DNA from: Haloplanus vescus | Lineage (GTDB): Archaea; Halobacteriota; Halobacteria; Halobacteriales; Haloferacaceae | Assembly (NCBI RefSeq): GCF_900107665.1 | Contig: NZ_FNQT01000001.1 | Span: forward strand, 417,742 to 481,741 | Direction: 5' to 3' | DNA: 64,000 bases | Shown here: positions 14,216 to 23,895 of the stretch, in pieces | Numbering within the stretch: position 1 is the first letter of the stretch | Layout: the number at the start of each line of letters is the position of its first letter | Notes under the pieces: model-generated | The model's input: the letters and a program-made list of their open reading frames with translations, nothing else | Databases searched by the model: none | What the model was told of the DNA's origin: nothing | Made by a program: the position numbers and the translations under genes

Positions 14216-14890
14216 ATGTATATCGTCATCGTCGGCGCCGGCGACATCGGCACGCCGCTGATCGAAGTCGCCACGAGCGGCGGCAACGAGGTGGTCGTCG
14301 TCGAACACGACGAAGAGCGCGCCGAACGCGCCGCTCACTACGACTGTCTGGTCATCAACGACGACGCGACGGTCAAGGAGACGCTCGTCGACGCGGGCGC
14401 CGACCGGGCCGACGCGCTCATCTCGACGACGGACCGCGACGCGGTCAACATCATGGTCTGCCTGCTGAGTCAGGAACTCGAGGTGCCGAACGTCGTCTCG
14501 GTTGTCCACAATCCCGAGCACATGAGCCTGTTCGAGCGAGTGGGCGTCAACACGATGCAGAACCCGCAGCGACTCATCGCCGAGTACCTGTATCGCGCCG
14601 TTGAGCGCCCCTCCATCGTCGACTACATGCAGGTCGGCGAGGAAGCGGAGGTGTTCGAAATCGACGTGGACGCGGGCGCGCCCATGGCGGGCACGACGAT
14701 TTCCGAAGCCGCGCAGGCGGGCTTGCTCGACGACGACCTCTTCATCGTCGCCATCGAGCGCCCGGACGCGGAGTCGCCAGTCGTCCCCCGCGGGAGCACG
14801 ACGATTCGCGCCGGTGACAGGCTGACGGTCTACGCCGCGGCGGGCGTGACCGACGGCGTCACGTCGGCGTTCGACACCGGGGACGAGTGA
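14216..14890 (+). CDS. TrkA-family potassium channel regulatory (RCK) protein
   Basis: A 224-residue KTN/RCK protein with one nucleotide-binding Rossmann domain (VIVGAGDIGTPL, residues 4-15, and an acidic strand end VVVEHDEER). It is followed by a TrkA_C domain (about 135-220: AEVFEIDVDAGAPMAG to AGDRLTVYA). It is half the length of the two-domain TrkA at 22.6-23.9 kb. It probably forms the cytosolic gating ring for the TrkH-like channel encoded next, since the TGA and the following ATG overlap (TGATG). It would sense NAD(H), ATP/ADP or cyclic dinucleotides; the ligand is not known from sequence. Confidence 0.9.
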   Translation: MYIVIVGAGDIGTPLIEVATSGGNEVVVVEHDEERAERAAHYDCLVINDDATVKETLVDAGADRADALISTTDRDAVNIMVCLLSQELEVPNVVSVVHNPEHMSLFERVGVNTMQNPQRLIAEYLYRAVERPSIVDYMQVGEEAEVFEIDVDAGAPMAGTTISEAAQAGLLDDDLFIVAIERPDAESPVVPRGSTTIRAGDRLTVYAAAGVTDGVTSAFDTGDE

Positions 14891-16542
14891 TGCCCCGGCG
14901 TCGCACCGTCGCCGGCGTCCCCGCCGACCTCGCGACCATCGCCCGAGACGTGGGGTCGCTCCTGGTGATGCAGGCGGCGCTGATGGCGCTCTCGGTGGGC
15001 GTGGCGTTGCTCGCCCGCGAGTACTACGCGGCAGAGGCGTTCCTGTTCGCCGCGGCGGTGACGGCCGGCGTCGGCGTCGCGGCCCGCCGTCGCTTCGCCG
15101 CCGCCCCCGAGCCACGACTCAAACACGGCATGGTCGTGGCGGCGTCCGGGTGGTTCTGTACGGCCGTCTTCGGCGCCCTCCCCTTCTTCCTGACCGCGAC
15201 GATGACGCCACAGGCCGTCGCCTCGGGGTTCGTTCCCGCCGGCGCCGACTACGCGGCGTCGAGTCTCTACGTCTTTCGTGACCCCGTCCACGCTCTTTTC
15301 GAGAGCATGAGCGGGTGGACCGGGAGCGGTCTCACGATGGCCGTCCACGAACCGTCGCTCCCGCGGACGATTCAGTGGTGGCGGTCGCTCATCCAGTACG
15401 TCGGCGGGGTGGGTGTCATCGTGCTGACGGTGACGATTCTCTCCCGGCCCGGAAGCGGGAGTTACGCCCTCTACCGGAGTGAGACGCGAGAGGAACGCAT
15501 CCACCCGAGCATCGTCTCGACGGTGCGGACGGTCTGGAAGCTCTTCCTCGGCTACACGCTGCTCTCTATCGTGGCGCTCTTTCTCGCCATCCGCGCGAGC
15601 GACTACGGGTCCTCGCTCCCGCTCTGGCAGGCGGGCTGGCAGGCACTCAACCACGCGATGACGGGGCTGTCGACCGGCGGATTCAGCGTCACCGACAACT
15701 CCATCGCCACCTACGATTCGCCGCTCATCGAGACGGTGTTGCTGCCCGTGATGACTCTCGGCGCCATCGCCTTCCCCGTCCACTACGCCGTCCTCGGAGA
15801 CCGAGACGTGCGCCAGCTCTGGACCGACATCCAGACCCGGTGGCTGTTCGTCCTCCTCGTCGTCGGCGCCATCGCGCTGTCGGTTCAGAACGCTGTCACG
15901 CTCCCGACGGGCGCGTTCACCGGGACGGCGAACTACGCCAGTCTCCGCTCGCTTGGCATCGCGGCGCCAGTCGTGGACGCGATTCGCGACTCGACCTTCC
16001 AGTTCGTCAGCGCCCTCTCGTGTACGGGGTTCCAGTCGTCGCCCATCGATCGCTGGGCCGCGGGCGGGAAACTGCTCGTCGCGGGCGCGATGACGCTCGG
16101 TGGAGCGGCGGGGTCGACGGTCGGCGGCCTGAAAATCATCCGCGGCTACACCATCGTCCGCGGCATCAAGTGGCAGTTCTCGCGGGTGTTCCTGCCGTCG
16201 AACGCCGTGGTGAACGCACGCATCGGCGACCGACTCCTCGACCGCGAGACGATGGAACGAGAGTTCAGCGAGGCGGCCATCGTCTCCCTGCTGTGGCTAC
16301 TCTTTCTCGCCGCGAGTAGCCTCCTCCTCGTCAACGTCGCCGGACCGGAGTTTACCTACGCCGACGCGCTCTTCGAGGTGGCGAGTGCACAGGGGAACGT
16401 CGGCCTCTCGACGGGTATCACCGGGCCGACGATGCCCGTCGTCGCCGAGGGAGCCTTCGTCGTCAATATGTGGATCGGACGGCTGGAAATCATTCCAGTG
16501 CTCGTCTTCGTTCGGTCGATGCTCTACGGCCTGAATCCGTGA
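14890..16542 (+). CDS. TrkH-family potassium uptake membrane subunit
   Basis: A 550-residue polytopic membrane protein of the Trk/Ktr/HKT family. Four pore-loop glycines for K+ selectivity are visible: SMSGWTGSGLTM, TGLSTGGFSV, SALSCTGFQSS and AQGNVGLSTG. A TrkH-like intramembrane loop is recognisable around GAAGSTVGGLKIIRGY, and the C-terminal MWIGRLEIIPVLV is conserved. The ATG at 14890 was chosen over GTG 14887 because it overlaps the preceding stop. It differs clearly from the second TrkH (20.9-22.5 kb) in its first pore loop (Trp-Thr-Gly-Ser rather than Phe-Thr-Thr-Thr), so the two may have different affinity or ion preference. Confidence 0.9.
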   Translation: MPRRRTVAGVPADLATIARDVGSLLVMQAALMALSVGVALLAREYYAAEAFLFAAAVTAGVGVAARRRFAAAPEPRLKHGMVVAASGWFCTAVFGALPFFLTATMTPQAVASGFVPAGADYAASSLYVFRDPVHALFESMSGWTGSGLTMAVHEPSLPRTIQWWRSLIQYVGGVGVIVLTVTILSRPGSGSYALYRSETREERIHPSIVSTVRTVWKLFLGYTLLSIVALFLAIRASDYGSSLPLWQAGWQALNHAMTGLSTGGFSVTDNSIATYDSPLIETVLLPVMTLGAIAFPVHYAVLGDRDVRQLWTDIQTRWLFVLLVVGAIALSVQNAVTLPTGAFTGTANYASLRSLGIAAPVVDAIRDSTFQFVSALSCTGFQSSPIDRWAAGGKLLVAGAMTLGGAAGSTVGGLKIIRGYTIVRGIKWQFSRVFLPSNAVVNARIGDRLLDRETMEREFSEAAIVSLLWLLFLAASSLLLVNVAGPEFTYADALFEVASAQGNVGLSTGITGPTMPVVAEGAFVVNMWIGRLEIIPVLVFVRSMLYGLNP

Positions 16543-16732: not shown

Positions 16733-17152
16733 TCAGTCGAGGTCGCGGTCGCGAACACCCTCGCGGACGCGGTCCGCACGCTTGCGGACTCGATTGACGT
16801 AGCGGTCGATCTTCTCGGGCTTCAGTCCGTAGAACGACGCGACCCACAGCTGGTCCGCGTACGACTGCGTCAGGAAATACGCGACGAGGGTGTCGCGGCC
16901 AGCCTGGATGATGGTCGGCGGGATGCCCCGGTCGCCGACATCCACCTCGTCGAAGCCGTTGACGTCGAAGAAGACGTCGGCGTAGAGGGTCGCGGCCTCG
17001 GGGTCCTCGAAGACAGCCCCCACGTGGTCGGGGGCTTCGAATCGGTAGACCGTCTCGTCGTCGGCCGTCGCCTCGGCGATGCGAACGTCGAGGACGTACT
17101 CGCGATACGTCGATTCCGTGCCGTCGATGGCGTCGTGTGCGTGTGAGGACAT
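16733..17152 (-). CDS. Conserved haloarchaeal protein of unknown function
   Basis: A 139-residue soluble acidic protein. It opens MSSHAHDAIDGTE, has a beta-rich middle (TVYRFEAPDHVGAVFEDPEAATLYADVFFDVNGF), a segment GIPPTIIQAGRDTLVAYFLTQSYADQLWVASFYGL, and a basic C-terminal helix ending KRADRVREGVRDRDLD. No catalytic motif is seen, nor any signal peptide or membrane segment. It sits six bases from the cohesin-like protein on the same strand, so the two could share a transcript, but its composition suggests a cytoplasmic role. No family is recognised with confidence. Confidence 0.72.
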   Translation of the reverse strand: MSSHAHDAIDGTESTYREYVLDVRIAEATADDETVYRFEAPDHVGAVFEDPEAATLYADVFFDVNGFDEVDVGDRGIPPTIIQAGRDTLVAYFLTQSYADQLWVASFYGLKPEKIDRYVNRVRKRADRVREGVRDRDLD

Positions 17153-17158
17153 GGTGTG

Positions 17159-17917
17159 TTAGCGCTGTCGCCAGCGGGCGCCGCCGAGCAGGAGCGCGAT
17201 GGCGACGACCACGAGCGGTGTCGGGAAGGTTCCGAATCCGGAGGTCGGTGCAGGGGTGTCGGTGGGGCCCGCGTCGGTCCCGTCGGCCGTCGAGGCGTCG
17301 GACTGGCTCGACTGACCGCCGTTCGAGGCGTCGGTGGAGCCGGCGTCTGCGGTGGGCGTCGTCGCGCCGTCGGACACCGTCACGGTCCCGGACTGCGTGG
17401 CCGGTTCGAAGGCGTTCCCGGTGTCGGCGTCGAACTGCCGGGGCGTGACCGAGAGGGTCGCCTCGCCCGGTTCGGCGCCGGCGATTTCGACCGTCGCCAG
17501 CGTCACGTTCGTCGCCCCGGGTTCGACGGCGCCCTCCATGTCGGCCGCTTCAAGGGTGGCCGTCGTCCCGTCTGAGCCAATCTGTGGCTCGGTCGTCAGC
17601 CCGAAGCGGTCGGGATAGCTCGCGGACTGGATGCGGGCCGTCCCGGGCGTCTCGACGGTGATATCGAGGTAGTACCCCGCCAGGCCGTTCGGGGCGTTCG
17701 TGAGGACGATGCCGACCGTCGCCGTGCCGTCCGCCGTCGCCGTGGCGTCGGTGACGACGACGGTTGGTTGGTCGCTCTGTGCCGCGGCGGTCCCCGTCGC
17801 CGCCACCGCCCCGAGGAGGGCGAGCGCCACCAGCGCGACTGCAGTCGCGACGCGTCGCTGGCGAGCGTCGGCGAGTATCGAACGTGGACTCAGTGTGGAA
17901 CGAATGCGTCGAATCAT
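17159..17917 (-). CDS. Membrane-anchored cohesin-like surface protein
   Basis: A 252-residue exported protein. A basic N-terminus and hydrophobic stretch (about 23-47, ending GTAAAQ) form a Sec signal. Residues about 50-183 look like a cohesin/carbohydrate-binding beta-sandwich: VVVTDATATADGTATVGIVLTNAPNGLAGYYLDITV, LATVEIAGAEPGEATLSV and FDADTGNAFEPATQSGTVTV. A Ser/Thr/Asp-rich linker (184-226) follows, then a C-terminal anchor GFG...LLLGG-ARWRQR resembling archaeosortase-type C-termini. It lies 88 bases downstream of the PhoX-dockerin gene on the same strand. A role as a surface scaffold for that enzyme is inferred and not shown. Confidence 0.75.
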   Translation of the reverse strand: MIRRIRSTLSPRSILADARQRRVATAVALVALALLGAVAATGTAAAQSDQPTVVVTDATATADGTATVGIVLTNAPNGLAGYYLDITVETPGTARIQSASYPDRFGLTTEPQIGSDGTTATLEAADMEGAVEPGATNVTLATVEIAGAEPGEATLSVTPRQFDADTGNAFEPATQSGTVTVSDGATTPTADAGSTDASNGGQSSQSDASTADGTDAGPTDTPAPTSGFGTFPTPLVVVAIALLLGGARWRQR

Positions 17918-18005
17918 TGTGTTAAATAAGGTGGCGGTGGGGCCGAGCGCGGTCGGTCGGTGACCGACGAGCGCTCGCCGTGACTGACCCGCTACCGCCG
18001 TCGGA

Positions 18006-20669
18006 TCAGTTGACCTCTCCGTAGAGGTCGACGATGTCGTCGAAGTCGAGGCGGCCGTTCTCGTTGAAGTCGTAGGCCGACTTGTTCATCGTCACGCTGT
18101 CGGCGTCGAAGTTGTCGAAGAGGATTTCGATGTCCTCGTAGTCGAGGCGGCCGTTGCCGTTGAGGTCCTCGTAGAACCCGTCGCCGTCGGGGTCGGTCGG
18201 GGCACTTCCGCCCGTGACCGTCGGCGGACCGGTGACGAGCACTCCCGACCGCGCCTCGGTGTCGATGGCGTTGCCGTCCTCGTTGTCGAGGCTCTCCACC
18301 TCGACCTGCAGGTCCGTCGTCCCCGTATCGACGCCGCGGACCGTCAGCGTGGCGAGCGGAATCTTCCGCCCGCCGCTCTGAATCGCTCGGTCCGTGTCCG
18401 CGACGCGAATCGTCACGCTCGACCCGTCGGTACTGGCCGAGCTCTCGGTCAGGCCGAGGTTCTCGGGGAACTCGACGCCCGTGATGGTGGCCACGTCCGG
18501 GTTGGTGACCGACACCGTGAGTTCGCCGCCGGAGAAGCCGGTCGGCAGCGCCGAGGCGGTGAGTTCGACCTCGCCCGTCTGGCCGTAGCCGACGGCCATC
18601 GAGTCGACGTCGAGCATGACGTTCGGCTGGAAGACGTAGAGGCCGTCGTTGGGGTACGAGCGGGCCGGGCCGCCGAAGCCGTCTTCACAACAGATCACGC
18701 GCCCGTCGCGCATCGTGTAGACGTTGTCGATGTTGCGGAGGGCGTCGTCGGCATCCTCCGGCCCGTCGGTGAAGTCCGGCCCCGTGATGACCGGTTCGAG
18801 CGTCGAGACGTTGTAGTTGGGTTCGAGCTCCGCGCGGTAGACGACGCCGCCGTCGACGCGGTCCATCTGGATATCGCCCTCGTCGTTTGCCAGGTCGTCG
18901 TTGAACTCGGAGATGCCGAAGTAGACGAGGTCACCGGGCTGGGAGTCGTCGACGCTGTCGACACCCTCGGCCTTGTTGAACTCGATGGAGGCGCCGATCT
19001 CTTTGGCCGCGGCGCGCGTCTCGAGGAAGGGAACACGGCGGAGTTCCTCATCGACGCCGTCCGGGCCGTTGGCCTCGTACTGCTCGGCCCATCGGACGAT
19101 TTCCTCGTTGGTGATGTAGTTCTGGTTGCCGTTCTCGATGACTTCGAGGTCGGCTTCCTTCAGCGCCGCCGCGGGATCGTTCTGCCAGCTGGTCTCGGCG
19201 TGGGTTTCGAGGTAGTCGACCTGCGTCACGTCGTCGTACTCGGCGATCCAGGATTCGACCTCGCCGTTGGTGGCGTGGCCGAGTTCGATCCACTCGATTT
19301 CGAGCGGGGTCTGGGCCGGGGAGTTGCGCTGGCCTGCCTCGCTGGCGTTGGCCGCGTCGTTCGTGATTTTCGGCGCGTAGAGCGTGCCCGCGATGTCGTC
19401 GGTGTCGTCGTAGCTGTCGATTGGCTCGTCGGCGACGAACTTGTAGATACCCTTGCTGTCGCCGTCGGCACAGCTGTAGACGGTCTTGCGGTCGCCTTGG
19501 ATATCGGGGGATTCCCACGCGCTCCGACCCATCACCCAGTACTTGATCGGGTCGGGTGTCTCGGCGGCCGGTTGTCGGATATCGACGTGGTAGCCGTAGC
19601 GGTAGGGGTTCGGGTAGACGTCGTCGATGGGCGTCGTGGCGAGGTTGTCCTCACCGCTCTGGTCGGACGGTTCCGCGCCGAGGTGGTACGCGAGGAACTC
19701 GACCCCGGTGAGTGCCCAGTACCCCTGCGGACTCCAGTTGGTGTCGACGTCGCCGTCGTCGGCGTAGGTGTCGATGGCACCGGAAATCTCGGTCGGGTTC
19801 GGGCGGTTCCAGAACTGACAGCCACCCACGAGCCCCTCACCGCTCCCGTTCTCGACGATGTCGCCGACCGTGTTGGTGAGTGAGACACGGGTGTGGGCGT
19901 AGTTCTCCTCGGAGGAAATCATCGTCTCCCACGGGCTGAGGTCGCCGTAGCAGTTGATGCGCGTGCCGCCGATATCGCGGAACGACGACGTGTTCGTCAG
20001 GTTCATCGCGTCGTCTAGGTCGGCGCTCCACTCGCCCTCCCCGTCCTGACTGATGAAGACCCGCGAGATGCACCCGGGGCTGTTCTCCCAGTTGGTGAAG
20101 AGATACCCCTCGGTGCCCTCGTCGTTCGTGGGAACGAACTGGTTGCAGTCGGGGTTCGTCGCCGCCCCGCCGTACTGCGTGCCCGCGAAGGTGTCCTGTG
20201 TGATGTCGGTGCCGTCCGGCGTCTGCGTCACGCCGAGGCGCGCCTCGCCGCCCCGAATCGGCTCGCGCCCTTGGAACAGAATCTCGTAGTCGCCGGATTC
20301 GGACCGAATCTGTCGCTGTTTGGCTTCGGTGTCCGGAATCCCGACTTCGGTGAAGTCGTCGTTGGACCCGTCGAAAGAGAACTGGAAGCCGCTGAAGTAA
20401 CCGACTGCCGCCCGGCCGAATGGCTCCGGATTCTCGCCCTCGGGGTGCTGGAGGCTGTACAGGAACGAGCCGTCGTCGAAGACGAACGGACCCGTCACCT
20501 CGGCACCGAACGCCGTCGTCGAGAACCGCTTGAGTTCCCCCTTGACGCTCGGCGCGCCCGGCGTGTCCGTCTCTGCTACTTCCTCTGCGCTCGCGACCCC
20601 GGAGACGCTAGCCCCGAGTGCCGCGGCGACTGACGTCGCCATCAAGCTGCGTCGAGTTAGATCGACCAT
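18006..20669 (-). CDS. Tat-exported PhoX-type phosphatase with cohesin-like and dockerin domains
   Basis: An 887-residue protein. A twin-arginine-like signal (DLTRRSLMATSVAAALGA..ASA) spans residues 1-28. Residues about 35-680 form a PhoX/DUF839 beta-propeller. C240 in the stretch CYGDLSPWETMISSEEN (240-256) matches the metal-ligand motif of PhoX enzymes, which use iron and calcium to hydrolyse phosphate esters. Residues about 683-813 are cohesin-like (VMLDVDSMAVGYGQTGEVEL to ARSGVLVTG). Residues 826-887 are a dockerin with two calcium-loop repeats: DLNGNGRLDYEDI at 835 and DFNENGRLDFDDI at 867. The ATG at 20669 was chosen because the Tat signal begins there; the open frame extends 72 codons further. 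It probably supplies phosphate from outside the cell. Confidence 0.87.
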   Translation of the reverse strand: MVDLTRRSLMATSVAAALGASVSGVASAEEVAETDTPGAPSVKGELKRFSTTAFGAEVTGPFVFDDGSFLYSLQHPEGENPEPFGRAAVGYFSGFQFSFDGSNDDFTEVGIPDTEAKQRQIRSESGDYEILFQGREPIRGGEARLGVTQTPDGTDITQDTFAGTQYGGAATNPDCNQFVPTNDEGTEGYLFTNWENSPGCISRVFISQDGEGEWSADLDDAMNLTNTSSFRDIGGTRINCYGDLSPWETMISSEENYAHTRVSLTNTVGDIVENGSGEGLVGGCQFWNRPNPTEISGAIDTYADDGDVDTNWSPQGYWALTGVEFLAYHLGAEPSDQSGEDNLATTPIDDVYPNPYRYGYHVDIRQPAAETPDPIKYWVMGRSAWESPDIQGDRKTVYSCADGDSKGIYKFVADEPIDSYDDTDDIAGTLYAPKITNDAANASEAGQRNSPAQTPLEIEWIELGHATNGEVESWIAEYDDVTQVDYLETHAETSWQNDPAAALKEADLEVIENGNQNYITNEEIVRWAEQYEANGPDGVDEELRRVPFLETRAAAKEIGASIEFNKAEGVDSVDDSQPGDLVYFGISEFNDDLANDEGDIQMDRVDGGVVYRAELEPNYNVSTLEPVITGPDFTDGPEDADDALRNIDNVYTMRDGRVICCEDGFGGPARSYPNDGLYVFQPNVMLDVDSMAVGYGQTGEVELTASALPTGFSGGELTVSVTNPDVATITGVEFPENLGLTESSASTDGSSVTIRVADTDRAIQSGGRKIPLATLTVRGVDTGTTDLQVEVESLDNEDGNAIDTEARSGVLVTGPPTVTGGSAPTDPDGDGFYEDLNGNGRLDYEDIEILFDNFDADSVTMNKSAYDFNENGRLDFDDIVDLYGEVN

Positions 20670-20905: not shown

Positions 20906-22510
20906 CTACTGGCGCCAGTATTCGGGCGTCAGGACGACCAACACCGGTAGGATTTCCAGCCGTCCAATCCACATCAGGACGATCATGAAGAGCTTCGCCG
21001 GTGACGAGAAGTCGAGATAACTCCCCATCGGTCCCACGAGACCGAATCCCGGCCCGACGTTGCCGAGGGTCGCGGCGACGGCGCTCATGACTTCGAGCAC
21101 CGACAGCGAGAGGTCCATCCGGGCCGCGTCGAGGAAGAGCAGCGCCGTCGCAACGAAAAACAGCACGAAGTACAGGAGCGTAAAGGCGTAGACACCACGG
21201 ATGGCCCGCTCGTCGACCGTCCGGCCGGCGAGTCTGACCGGGCGCACGGCCTCGGGGTGTGCCGTCGTGAACAGTTCCCGCCGAATCGACTTCAGGATGA
21301 TATACCACCGAACGACCTTGATACCCCCACCGGTGGACCCGGCGGACCCACCGATGAACATCCCGAAGAGGAGGAGATACTGCGCCGACGGTCCCCACGC
21401 GTTGAAGTCGATACTGGCGTACCCGGTCGTGGTCACTAGCGAGACGACCTGAAACGCCGCGTGTCTGAGCGACGGTTCGACGTGGCCGACGAGTGTCGCC
21501 CGAATACCGTCGAGGTAGGCGGCGTCGTACGTCCCGCCCGCGGGAACGGCCGTCGAAATTCCGTGCCCGACGAACAGAACCGCCGCCACTAGCCCTGTGA
21601 GGACGGCCATCGCACCGACGTAGAATCGGAACTCGGAGTCGCCGGGAAGCCGTTTCGGGTCGCCCGTCAGCGCGTGCCAAAACAGGGCGAAGTTGGTCCC
21701 CGCGACGACCATGAAGGGGATGATGAGCCACTGGACGGCGGCGGAGAACGCCTCGATGCTCCGCGCCTCGGGCGAGAATCCGCCGGTCGGGAGCGTCGTC
21801 AACCCGTGGGCGACGGCGTTGTACACGCCCATCCCGGGCGCCATCCCCGCGCGGTGGAGTCCGTAGAGCAACACGATTTCGAGGACGGTGAATCCCAGAT
21901 ACGCAACCCAGAGCGCCCGCGCCGTCTCCGCGATTCGCGGCGTGAGTTTCTCGATGCCCGGCCCCGGCGCTTCCGCGTCCATCAACTGCGCCCCGCCGAC
22001 CGAGAGCTCCGGCAGAATCGCCACCGCGAGGACGACGATACCCATCCCGCCGAGCCACTGGGTGAGCTGTCGCCAGAGCATGATGCCGTGGCCGTGGGCG
22101 TCGAGCGAAATCTGCCCGAGGACGGTCGCCCCCGTCGTCGTGAATCCGCTCATACTCTCGAACAGCGCGTTCGCGGGATGAGCGAGCGTCGAGTCCGGCG
22201 CCGTCGCCGGGGCGAGACCCGGGAGGCCGTGTGCCTCGACCAGATACGGGAGCGCGCCGATGACCGACACCGCCAGCCACGTCACCGCGACCATCAGAAA
22301 GCCTTCGCGCGCGCCGATGTCGGGTTCGGGACGGAGCCGTTCCAGCCACCAGCCGACCGTGATGGTCACCGCGATGGTTGCGAGAAACGGCGCGACGGAC
22401 TCGCCGTAGGCGACTGCCACGGCGAGCGGGAGCGCCAGCGGTACGGAGAGGTGTTTGAGGACGCTCCCGACGAGGCTCAGACTCGCCCGGTAATCGACAC
22501 GAATCGCCAT
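20906..22510 (-). CDS. trkH: TrkH potassium uptake membrane subunit
   Basis: A 534-residue integral membrane protein, the pore-forming subunit of a Trk K+ uptake system. Four pore loops are seen: FESMSGFTTTGATVL, LTTLPTGGFSPEA, VSLVTTTGYASID and MSAVAATLGNVGPGFG, each with the selectivity glycine. GGSAGSTGGGIKVVRWY is the conserved gate-loop region, and MWIGRLEILPVLV closes the protein. ATG 22510 is preferred to the upstream TTG (22522). It lies 47 bases downstream of trkA on the same strand, so they form an operon. This is the canonical pair of the two Trk systems here. Confidence 0.94.
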   Translation of the reverse strand: MAIRVDYRASLSLVGSVLKHLSVPLALPLAVAVAYGESVAPFLATIAVTITVGWWLERLRPEPDIGAREGFLMVAVTWLAVSVIGALPYLVEAHGLPGLAPATAPDSTLAHPANALFESMSGFTTTGATVLGQISLDAHGHGIMLWRQLTQWLGGMGIVVLAVAILPELSVGGAQLMDAEAPGPGIEKLTPRIAETARALWVAYLGFTVLEIVLLYGLHRAGMAPGMGVYNAVAHGLTTLPTGGFSPEARSIEAFSAAVQWLIIPFMVVAGTNFALFWHALTGDPKRLPGDSEFRFYVGAMAVLTGLVAAVLFVGHGISTAVPAGGTYDAAYLDGIRATLVGHVEPSLRHAAFQVVSLVTTTGYASIDFNAWGPSAQYLLLFGMFIGGSAGSTGGGIKVVRWYIILKSIRRELFTTAHPEAVRPVRLAGRTVDERAIRGVYAFTLLYFVLFFVATALLFLDAARMDLSLSVLEVMSAVAATLGNVGPGFGLVGPMGSYLDFSSPAKLFMIVLMWIGRLEILPVLVVLTPEYWRQ

Positions 22511-22557
22511 CGAGTCTGTCAAGCGTTGACCAGCGGAGCGGCTTTAACCTGCTGATG

Positions 22558-23895
22558 TCACAGCAACGGCGTCGCCTCGTCGGCCACGCTCGTGTCGAGG
22601 AAGACGACGACGTGGTCGCCGGGTTGGATGACCGTATCGCCACGGGGCGTGACGAACTCGTCGTCGCGGGTGATGGCGCCGATGACGACGCCGTCGGGCA
22701 GGTCGTGGACCGACTCGTGAATCGGTCGGCCGGCGAGGACGCTCTCGGCGTCGATTTCGACCTCCATCACCTCGGCGCGGTCGCTCTCGATGATGGCGAT
22801 GTTCTCGGCGCCGCCCTCGCGGGTGAAGCGCGTAATCTCCTCGGCCACCACCTCGCGCGGATTGACCGCCACGTCGACGCCAACCGTCTCGAAGAGGTCG
22901 ACATACGCGGCCGTGTCGATGATCGCCACCGTCCGGTCGACGCCCAAGCGCCGCGCCAAAAGCGAGACGAGCAGGTTCTTCTCGTCGGAGTCGAGGGCGG
23001 CGATGACGAAGTCCGCGTCGCCGATGTGCTCGCGTTCGAGGAAGTCCATGTCCGTCGCGTCGTTCTGCATGACCACGGCCTTCGGGAGCTCCTCGGCGAG
23101 AAGCCGGGCACGGTCCGGGTCCTGTTCTATCAGGCGCGGTTTGAAGCCCCGGTCGCCGAGGAGGCGGGCGACGTGATAGCCGATTTCGCTCCCGCCAATG
23201 ATGACGACTTCCTCCGCCGTGCCCGGCGGTTCGTCCGGGGCGATACTGGTCGCGAACCCGCGGACTGCGCCCGGGCTGCCGATTACTACTACCCGGTCGT
23301 GTTCGTGCAGCACCGACCCCCCACGCGCGAGTTCGAGCTCGTCGTCGCGGAGGATGGCGGCGAAGGTGAGCTGTTCGAACCGGTCAGCCTCCGCAACGGT
23401 CTGGTCGGTGACGGGACTCCCCGGCGGAATCTCGAACTCCGCCATCTGGACGCTCCCGCCGGCGAAGGAGTCCACGTCGCGCGCGGCGGGGATGCCGACG
23501 ACGCGGACGATGGATTCGGCGGCCAGCAGGTTCGTACAGACGATGAAGTCGATGCCGAACGCGCGCTCGGAGCGCTCCCACGTCCGGAGGTACTCCGTGT
23601 TCTTCACGCGTGCGACGGTGAAAGCGTCGCTCACGGCGCGTGTCGTCGCACAGATGACGATGTTCGTCTCGTCGTCGTCGGTGCTGGCGATGACCATGTC
23701 GGCCTCGTCGACGCCCGCCTCCTCCAGCGACGACAGCGACGTGCCGTCGCCCTGGACGGCGAGGACGTCGAGCGAGTACGTCAGTTCCTCGACCCGGTCG
23801 CCGTCTCGGTCCATCACGACGATGTCGTGCGAGTCGGCGAGGTCGGCGGCGATGCTCGACCCGACCTGTCCCGCGCCGACGATGATTATGTGCAC
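22558..23895 (-). CDS. trkA: TrkA, two-domain potassium uptake regulator
   Basis: A 445-residue cytosolic protein with two tandem RCK units. The first Rossmann motif is IIIVGAGQVGSSIA (3-16) followed by VVMDRDGDRV. The second is VVIIGGSEIGYHVA (about 230-243) followed by RLIEQDPDRA. Each is followed by a TrkA_C domain (about 140-215 and 370-440). Full-length two-repeat TrkA forms a gating ring under the TrkH dimer and responds to NAD(H) or adenine nucleotides. It is upstream of trkH and co-oriented. In haloarchaea, which hold molar K+, this is a central osmotic component. Confidence 0.94.
   Translation of the reverse strand: MHIIIVGAGQVGSSIAADLADSHDIVVMDRDGDRVEELTYSLDVLAVQGDGTSLSSLEEAGVDEADMVIASTDDDETNIVICATTRAVSDAFTVARVKNTEYLRTWERSERAFGIDFIVCTNLLAAESIVRVVGIPAARDVDSFAGGSVQMAEFEIPPGSPVTDQTVAEADRFEQLTFAAILRDDELELARGGSVLHEHDRVVVIGSPGAVRGFATSIAPDEPPGTAEEVVIIGGSEIGYHVARLLGDRGFKPRLIEQDPDRARLLAEELPKAVVMQNDATDMDFLEREHIGDADFVIAALDSDEKNLLVSLLARRLGVDRTVAIIDTAAYVDLFETVGVDVAVNPREVVAEEITRFTREGGAENIAIIESDRAEVMEVEIDAESVLAGRPIHESVHDLPDGVVIGAITRDDEFVTPRGDTVIQPGDHVVVFLDTSVADEATPLL

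Follow-up and report, generated by a model that had tools for sequence, protein, structure and literature searches.

A PhoX-type phosphatase of Haloplanus vescus carries a dockerin and is paired with a membrane-anchored cohesin, a probable surface tether

A PhoX-type phosphatase encoded in the analyzed 64,000-nucleotide stretch of the Haloplanus vescus genome (the window) ends in a cassette of one cohesin and one dockerin, and the adjacent gene on the same strand encodes a single cohesin with a predicted C-terminal membrane anchor (Table 1). PhoX probably docks through its dockerin on the cohesin of this neighbor, which would thereby serve as its surface tether. This is the best-supported interpretation because the adjacency of the two genes is conserved, the anchor gene is lost together with the dockerin, the set of partners within the genome is closed, and binding by a homologous pair has been demonstrated in Archaeoglobus fulgidus. 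Since both genes are retained side by side in many haloarchaea and also disappear jointly, it is very likely that PhoX is held at the surface.

Table 1. Coordinates in the window of the PhoX gene, its cohesin-bearing neighbor and their parts
Feature	Position	Strand	Basis
Gene for PhoX-type phosphatase ending in a cohesin-dockerin cassette, 887 aa	18006..20669	-	Pfam PhoX; PDB PhoX profile match
Tat signal region MVDLTRRSLMATSVAAALGASVSGVASA, residues 1-28	20586..20669	-	sequence; R6 R7
PhoX catalytic core, residues 29-683	18621..20585	-	orthologue comparison, profile
PhoX cohesin domain, residues 686-815	18225..18614	-	AF2 model, VIA-align
PhoX dockerin, residues 823-887	18009..18203	-	sequence; Dockerin_1 in relatives; PDB dockerin profile matches; AF2
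Conserved stretch DPDGDGFYEDLN, residues 826-837, just upstream of loop 1	18159-18194	-	alignment of 46 relatives
Dockerin calcium loop 1, residues 835-846	18132-18167	-	sequence
Dockerin calcium loop 2, residues 867-878	18036-18071	-	sequence
Intergenic gap, 88 bp	17918..18005	.	both genes on one strand, compatible with an operon
Membrane-anchored cohesin gene, 252 aa	17159..17917	-	sequence, relatives
Sec-type signal region of anchor protein, residues 1-46	17780..17917	-	sequence
Cohesin domain of anchor protein, residues 47-185	17363..17779	-	AF2, VIA-align, profile
Ser/Thr/Asp-rich linker of anchor protein, residues 186-225	17243..17362	-	sequence
C-terminal hydrophobic anchor SGFGTFPTPLVVVAIALLLGGARWRQR of anchor protein	17162..17242	-	sequence
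Conserved 139-aa gene downstream of anchor gene	16733..17152	-	no Pfam family

The product of the larger gene is a predicted Tat-exported PhoX-type phosphatase. The start codon is the ATG at 20669, and the Tat signal reads RRSLMATSVAAALGASVSGVASA, with the arginine pair at residues 6 and 7 invariant among 26 orthologues. The single sequence scored 73.6 bits against Pfam PhoX (PF05787), for which the cut-off is 24. Searches with single sequences were too weak either to detect PhoX in the PDB or to identify the cohesins, and family profiles were therefore needed. The profile of the catalytic core matched two solved PhoX structures (PDB 3zwu and 4amf) at 4e-12, and the motif NCxG..PW.T..xEE (GT..NC....PW.T...EE) was aligned within this match. 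PhoX phosphatases are active with iron and calcium; such activity is predicted for the window enzyme, the observation bearing on it being the conservation of this motif. Many PhoX orthologues stop at the end of the core and have no cassette. The GC3 values of the PhoX gene (0.89) and its neighbor (0.86) are typical of coding DNA.

The C terminus of PhoX is a cohesin followed by a complete two-loop dockerin. The cohesin was modeled by AlphaFold2 (AF2) at a pLDDT of >93; in VIA-align its Z was 16.3 against 6kge/6kgc, the cohesin of Clostridium acetobutylicum, and 15.8 against 2xdh, that of A. fulgidus. In the dockerin, every calcium-ligand position is present in both loops, and the loop-helix pattern was modeled by AF2 at a pLDDT of ~95. 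Dockerin_1 reached 13-15 bits on the window sequence alone, under the Pfam cut-off of 22.9, and was matched in 39 of 46 aligned relatives having the cassette (best 3e-11). The Pfam Cohesin family was matched in four of these relatives (best 1e-5), and no match was obtained for either cohesin with the single window sequences. A profile of the cassette family found EF-hand proteins and dockerins in the PDB, and the same C-terminal cassette is present in dozens of relatives. The sequence-only reading had described a Tat-exported PhoX enzyme with a C-terminal cohesin-like domain and a two-repeat dockerin, and this description was confirmed by Pfam, the family profiles, the AF2 models and the composition of the loops. 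Within DPDGDGFYEDLN, the pattern D-x-D-x-D-x-x-x-E is almost invariant among the 46 relatives, and judged from its residues this stretch resembles an additional, third loop for calcium that would be peculiar to the dockerins of archaea.

The neighboring gene encodes a predicted Sec-exported protein made up of a single cohesin and a C-terminal membrane anchor. Its cohesin was modeled by AF2 at a pLDDT of >95 and aligned with Z 16.1 to the clostridial cohesins 1g1k and 4fl4, and the rmsd to solved cohesins was ~2. A profile built from 35 neighbor-type proteins matched two chains in the PDB, both of which were cohesins (E 0.003-0.007). The earlier description of this gene as Sec-exported, cohesin-like and ending in a hydrophobic anchor was therefore retained, the structural search having placed its domain in the cohesin fold at Z ~16 to solved cohesins. 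The two cohesins of PhoX and its neighbor are ~32% identical. The hydrophobic helix has a basic end, and SGFGTFPTPLVVVAIALLLGGARWRQR lies where a PGF-CTERM would lie but is without PGF. The window protein gave no match to NCBIfam, including TIGR04126 (PGF-CTERM); its Halorientalis relatives matched TIGR04126 above the cut-off and have a bona fide PGF-CTERM end. In relatives, the downstream cohesin begins 100-330 bp past PhoX.

The 139-aa gene that follows the anchor gene trails PhoX in many haloarchaea, whether or not the anchor gene lies between them, and it comes right after PhoX in several cassette-less or anchor-less loci of several genera. The PhoX-cohesin pair is flanked by two pairs of TrkA/TrkH genes for potassium uptake, one on each strand, at 14216-16542 (+) and 20906-23895 (-).

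To establish how widely the pairing holds, PhoX was searched for in 119 genomes from the family and in 292 from the class, and the DNA downstream of PhoX was read. This gave 99 distinct PhoX cores from Halobacteria, 53 with a dockerin and 46 without. An anchored-cohesin gene was found directly after 43 of the 53 dockerin-bearing PhoX genes and after none of the 46 others, so that the conserved pairing for which the sequence-only reading had proposed a check in other genomes was indeed observed. The Fisher value for this association, 1e-18, is naive in that it ignores kinship. In an IQ-TREE phylogeny of PhoX, dockerin and anchor each change ~12 times. Well-supported branches provided seven independent contrasts, and in these the anchor changed in the same direction as the dockerin in 6.2 and in the opposite direction in 0.0 (sign test, median p 0.03). 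In one genome (G040), the dockerin is lost, a remnant of the cohesin is retained, and the anchor gene is absent. Tandem PhoX paralogues, both with dockerins, were also seen with one anchored-cohesin gene after them (L214, L220 and L243).

Within the H. vescus genome, which is 99.8% complete, profile searches found exactly two cohesins, those of PhoX and its neighbor, and one credible dockerin, that of PhoX. PhoX is therefore the sole visible partner of the anchored cohesin here. No second enzyme of the PhoD or 5'-nucleotidase type bearing the cassette was found in this genome. A Pfam Cohesin match elsewhere in it (L001) was rejected, as it belongs to a different surface protein with a PGF-CTERM-like tail and is not a cohesin.

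The proposed tether would operate as follows. PhoX would fold in the cytoplasm before export through Tat, and the neighbor would be exported through Sec, with its C-terminal helix fixing it in the membrane and a flexible Ser/Thr linker carrying its cohesin on the outside. The dockerin, with its two loops held by calcium, would then dock on this cohesin, and the docked phosphatase would stay at the cell surface, where released phosphate could be taken up locally. As an extra interaction, the dockerin of one PhoX could bind the cohesin of another, which may load more copies per anchor. Regarding the sequence-only proposal that the anchored cohesin holds the phosphatase at the surface, the modules, adjacency, co-loss and closed partner set all support it; we infer the binding, its calcium dependence and its physiological benefit. 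The term "scaffolded" used in that proposal was found to be too strong for this genome, in which the anchor protein offers a single cohesin and no dockerin protein besides PhoX is present.

Docking was modeled by AF2 on linked chains that were read through the natural intergenic gap, with stops treated as residues and one four-base step, and that are not chains made by the cell. With calcium absent and alignments shallow, no confident pose of the dockerin on the anchor was obtained: the dockerin-anchor chain reached a pTM of 0.55 and the chain with all three domains one of 0.49. The individual domains folded well in these chains, and the pTM gives no support for a fixed complex. The lack of a true PGF-CTERM signal in the anchor of the window also counts against the tether.

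An alternative that we consider unlikely is that the main partner of the dockerin is the cohesin of PhoX itself, bound either intramolecularly or in head-to-tail oligomers, with the anchored cohesin as an occasional end-stop. Chaining of PhoX proteins through their own cohesins was the second option of the sequence-only reading. Ten PhoX genes have an intact dockerin and no adjacent anchor gene, eight of them forming one clade in the best tree that is not strongly supported. Eight genomes with such anchor-less PhoX were searched, and seven hold PhoX's own cohesins alone, the eighth (G289) having three further cohesins. As the anchor-less genomes mostly offer only PhoX's own cohesin, self-association was deemed a real possibility. 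Once the distances of the PhoX core are accounted for, those of the cassette still correlate with those of the anchor (partial r 0.43-0.51). For the dockerin alone this partial r is 0.43, falling to a weak 0.11 (p 0.04) when own-cohesin distances are also removed, and the dockerin tracks PhoX's own cohesin more closely (partial r 0.62 versus 0.11). That the dockerin and own cohesin vary together is expected anyway because both lie in one gene, and for the same reason these correlations do not separate the anchor from the own cohesin as the dockerin's partner. Self-docking leaves unexplained why the anchor gene stands beside dockerin-bearing PhoX alone and is missing in 46 of 46 dockerin-less cases.

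It is very improbable that, instead of binding one another, the modules bind a substrate or an extracellular polymer. Type I dockerins on haloarchaeal glycoside hydrolases have been proposed to be substrate-binding (PMC10963439, PMC13260240), although the available text of these two reports gives no binding test. Here, partner cohesins occur in the adjacent gene and are lost together with the dockerin, and the same cassette is found on unrelated enzymes, both of which argue against polymer binding. The homology of the two cohesins means that the neighbor could be a duplicate, so that the pairing might be chance co-inheritance or a by-product of duplication, with the anchored cohesin serving another role, e.g., adhesion. 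This was judged the least probable explanation, to be given hardly any weight, as joint presence and joint absence are repeated across families and the pairing recurs with other proteins.

PhoX is not the only protein paired in this way. In Haloferax (a 5'-nucleotidase), Halorubrum, Halobellus and others, an anchored cohesin likewise comes next to and after further exported proteins that bear the cassette at their C terminus, and similar pairs were found in Methanofollis (a subtilase) and in a Thermoproteaceae bin. In the latter (L143, 1220-2324), the cassette protein adjoins a short protein in which a cohesin is combined with a hydrophobic C-terminal segment; as this lineage is non-halophilic, the pair is suggested to predate haloarchaea or to have moved. 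Two further loci (L137, 7100-10570, and L141, 7118-10588) encode Tat-exported proteins with staphylococcal-nuclease and DUF4350-type domains and a C-terminal cassette, each then followed by an anchored cohesin. A contig of Halorubrum kocurii (contig_103; L166 and L167) has a tandem cluster encoding many exported proteins that bear cohesins and dockerins and is more scaffold-like than the window pair.

The presence of the cassette on PhoD, 5'-nucleotidase and other exported proteins hints at shared docking. The cassette of PhoD phosphatase is ~60% identical to that of the window. The PhoX-linked anchor is present in seven of eight sampled genomes with a PhoD-cohesin-dockerin protein, and in the eighth (G203) the contig stops 391 bp past the PhoD gene; among genomes with a full-length PhoD match and no cassette, the anchor was found in one of six. 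In one Haloplanus genome (G083), PhoX, PhoD and 5'-nucleotidase all carry the cassette. It is conceivable, if rather doubtful, that the PhoX-linked anchored cohesin is a common landing site for these three phosphorus-scavenging enzymes, chained through their own cassettes into a "phosphatasome" at the cell surface.

Archaeal non-cellulosomal cohesins and dockerins are already known; what is new is a PhoX dockerin with an anchored-cohesin partner gene. Full-text literature searches, with most subscription papers outside their scope, returned no report that describes this pair of haloarchaeal genes or a PhoX protein bearing a dockerin. The role of archaeal dockerins and cohesins beyond cellulosomes has been a standing question since 1999. 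The compact, closed pair described here, with its plausible enzyme as cargo, its anchor in the membrane and the contrasts provided by natural gain and loss, allows this question to be tested directly in culturable relatives, e.g., Haloarcula. If true, the tether would suggest that halophiles retain exported phosphatases by means of a clip that can be removed and not by a covalent anchor; it would also be a source of salt-stable binding modules.

The window enzyme resembles the Pseudomonas fluorescens PhoX alkaline phosphatase (3zwu, 4amf) in its core profile, the retained Cys-containing motif and export through Tat, and differs from it in being very divergent in sequence and >200 residues longer at the C terminus owing to the cassette. 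Bacterial cellulosomes have anchoring scaffoldins that include single-cohesin surface anchors such as OlpA. The likeness to these lies in a surface-anchored cohesin that receives a dockerin-bearing enzyme, as predicted here, and the fold matches that of the OlpA cohesin 3ul4 (VIA-align Z 14.8). However, the present genome has no multi-cohesin scaffoldin, each protein having one cohesin, and a membrane helix takes the place of the S-layer homology repeats, with a phosphatase as cargo. In ANME, archaeal extracellular dockerin and cohesin proteins are known, some with scaffoldin-like repeats (PMC9012536); their cargo and partners vary, whereas the gene pair in the window is a fixed one and tied to a single enzyme family.

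The closest likeness is to the archaeal, non-cellulosomal A. fulgidus pair ORF2375/ORF2376 (PDB 2xdh), in which a C-terminal dockerin and a cohesin are likewise encoded in adjacent genes and the ORF2375 dockerin binds the ORF2376 cohesin strongly and specifically (PMC9705933). The window pair has the features of such a pair, namely a partner with the cohesin fold, two complete calcium loops and paired genes, and by analogy the A. fulgidus pair lends strong support to the predicted binding. In the window, by contrast, the dockerin protein is a PhoX phosphatase, its partner is membrane-anchored at the C terminus, and pairs of this type persist in many genera of haloarchaea, the anchor gene disappearing along with the dockerin.
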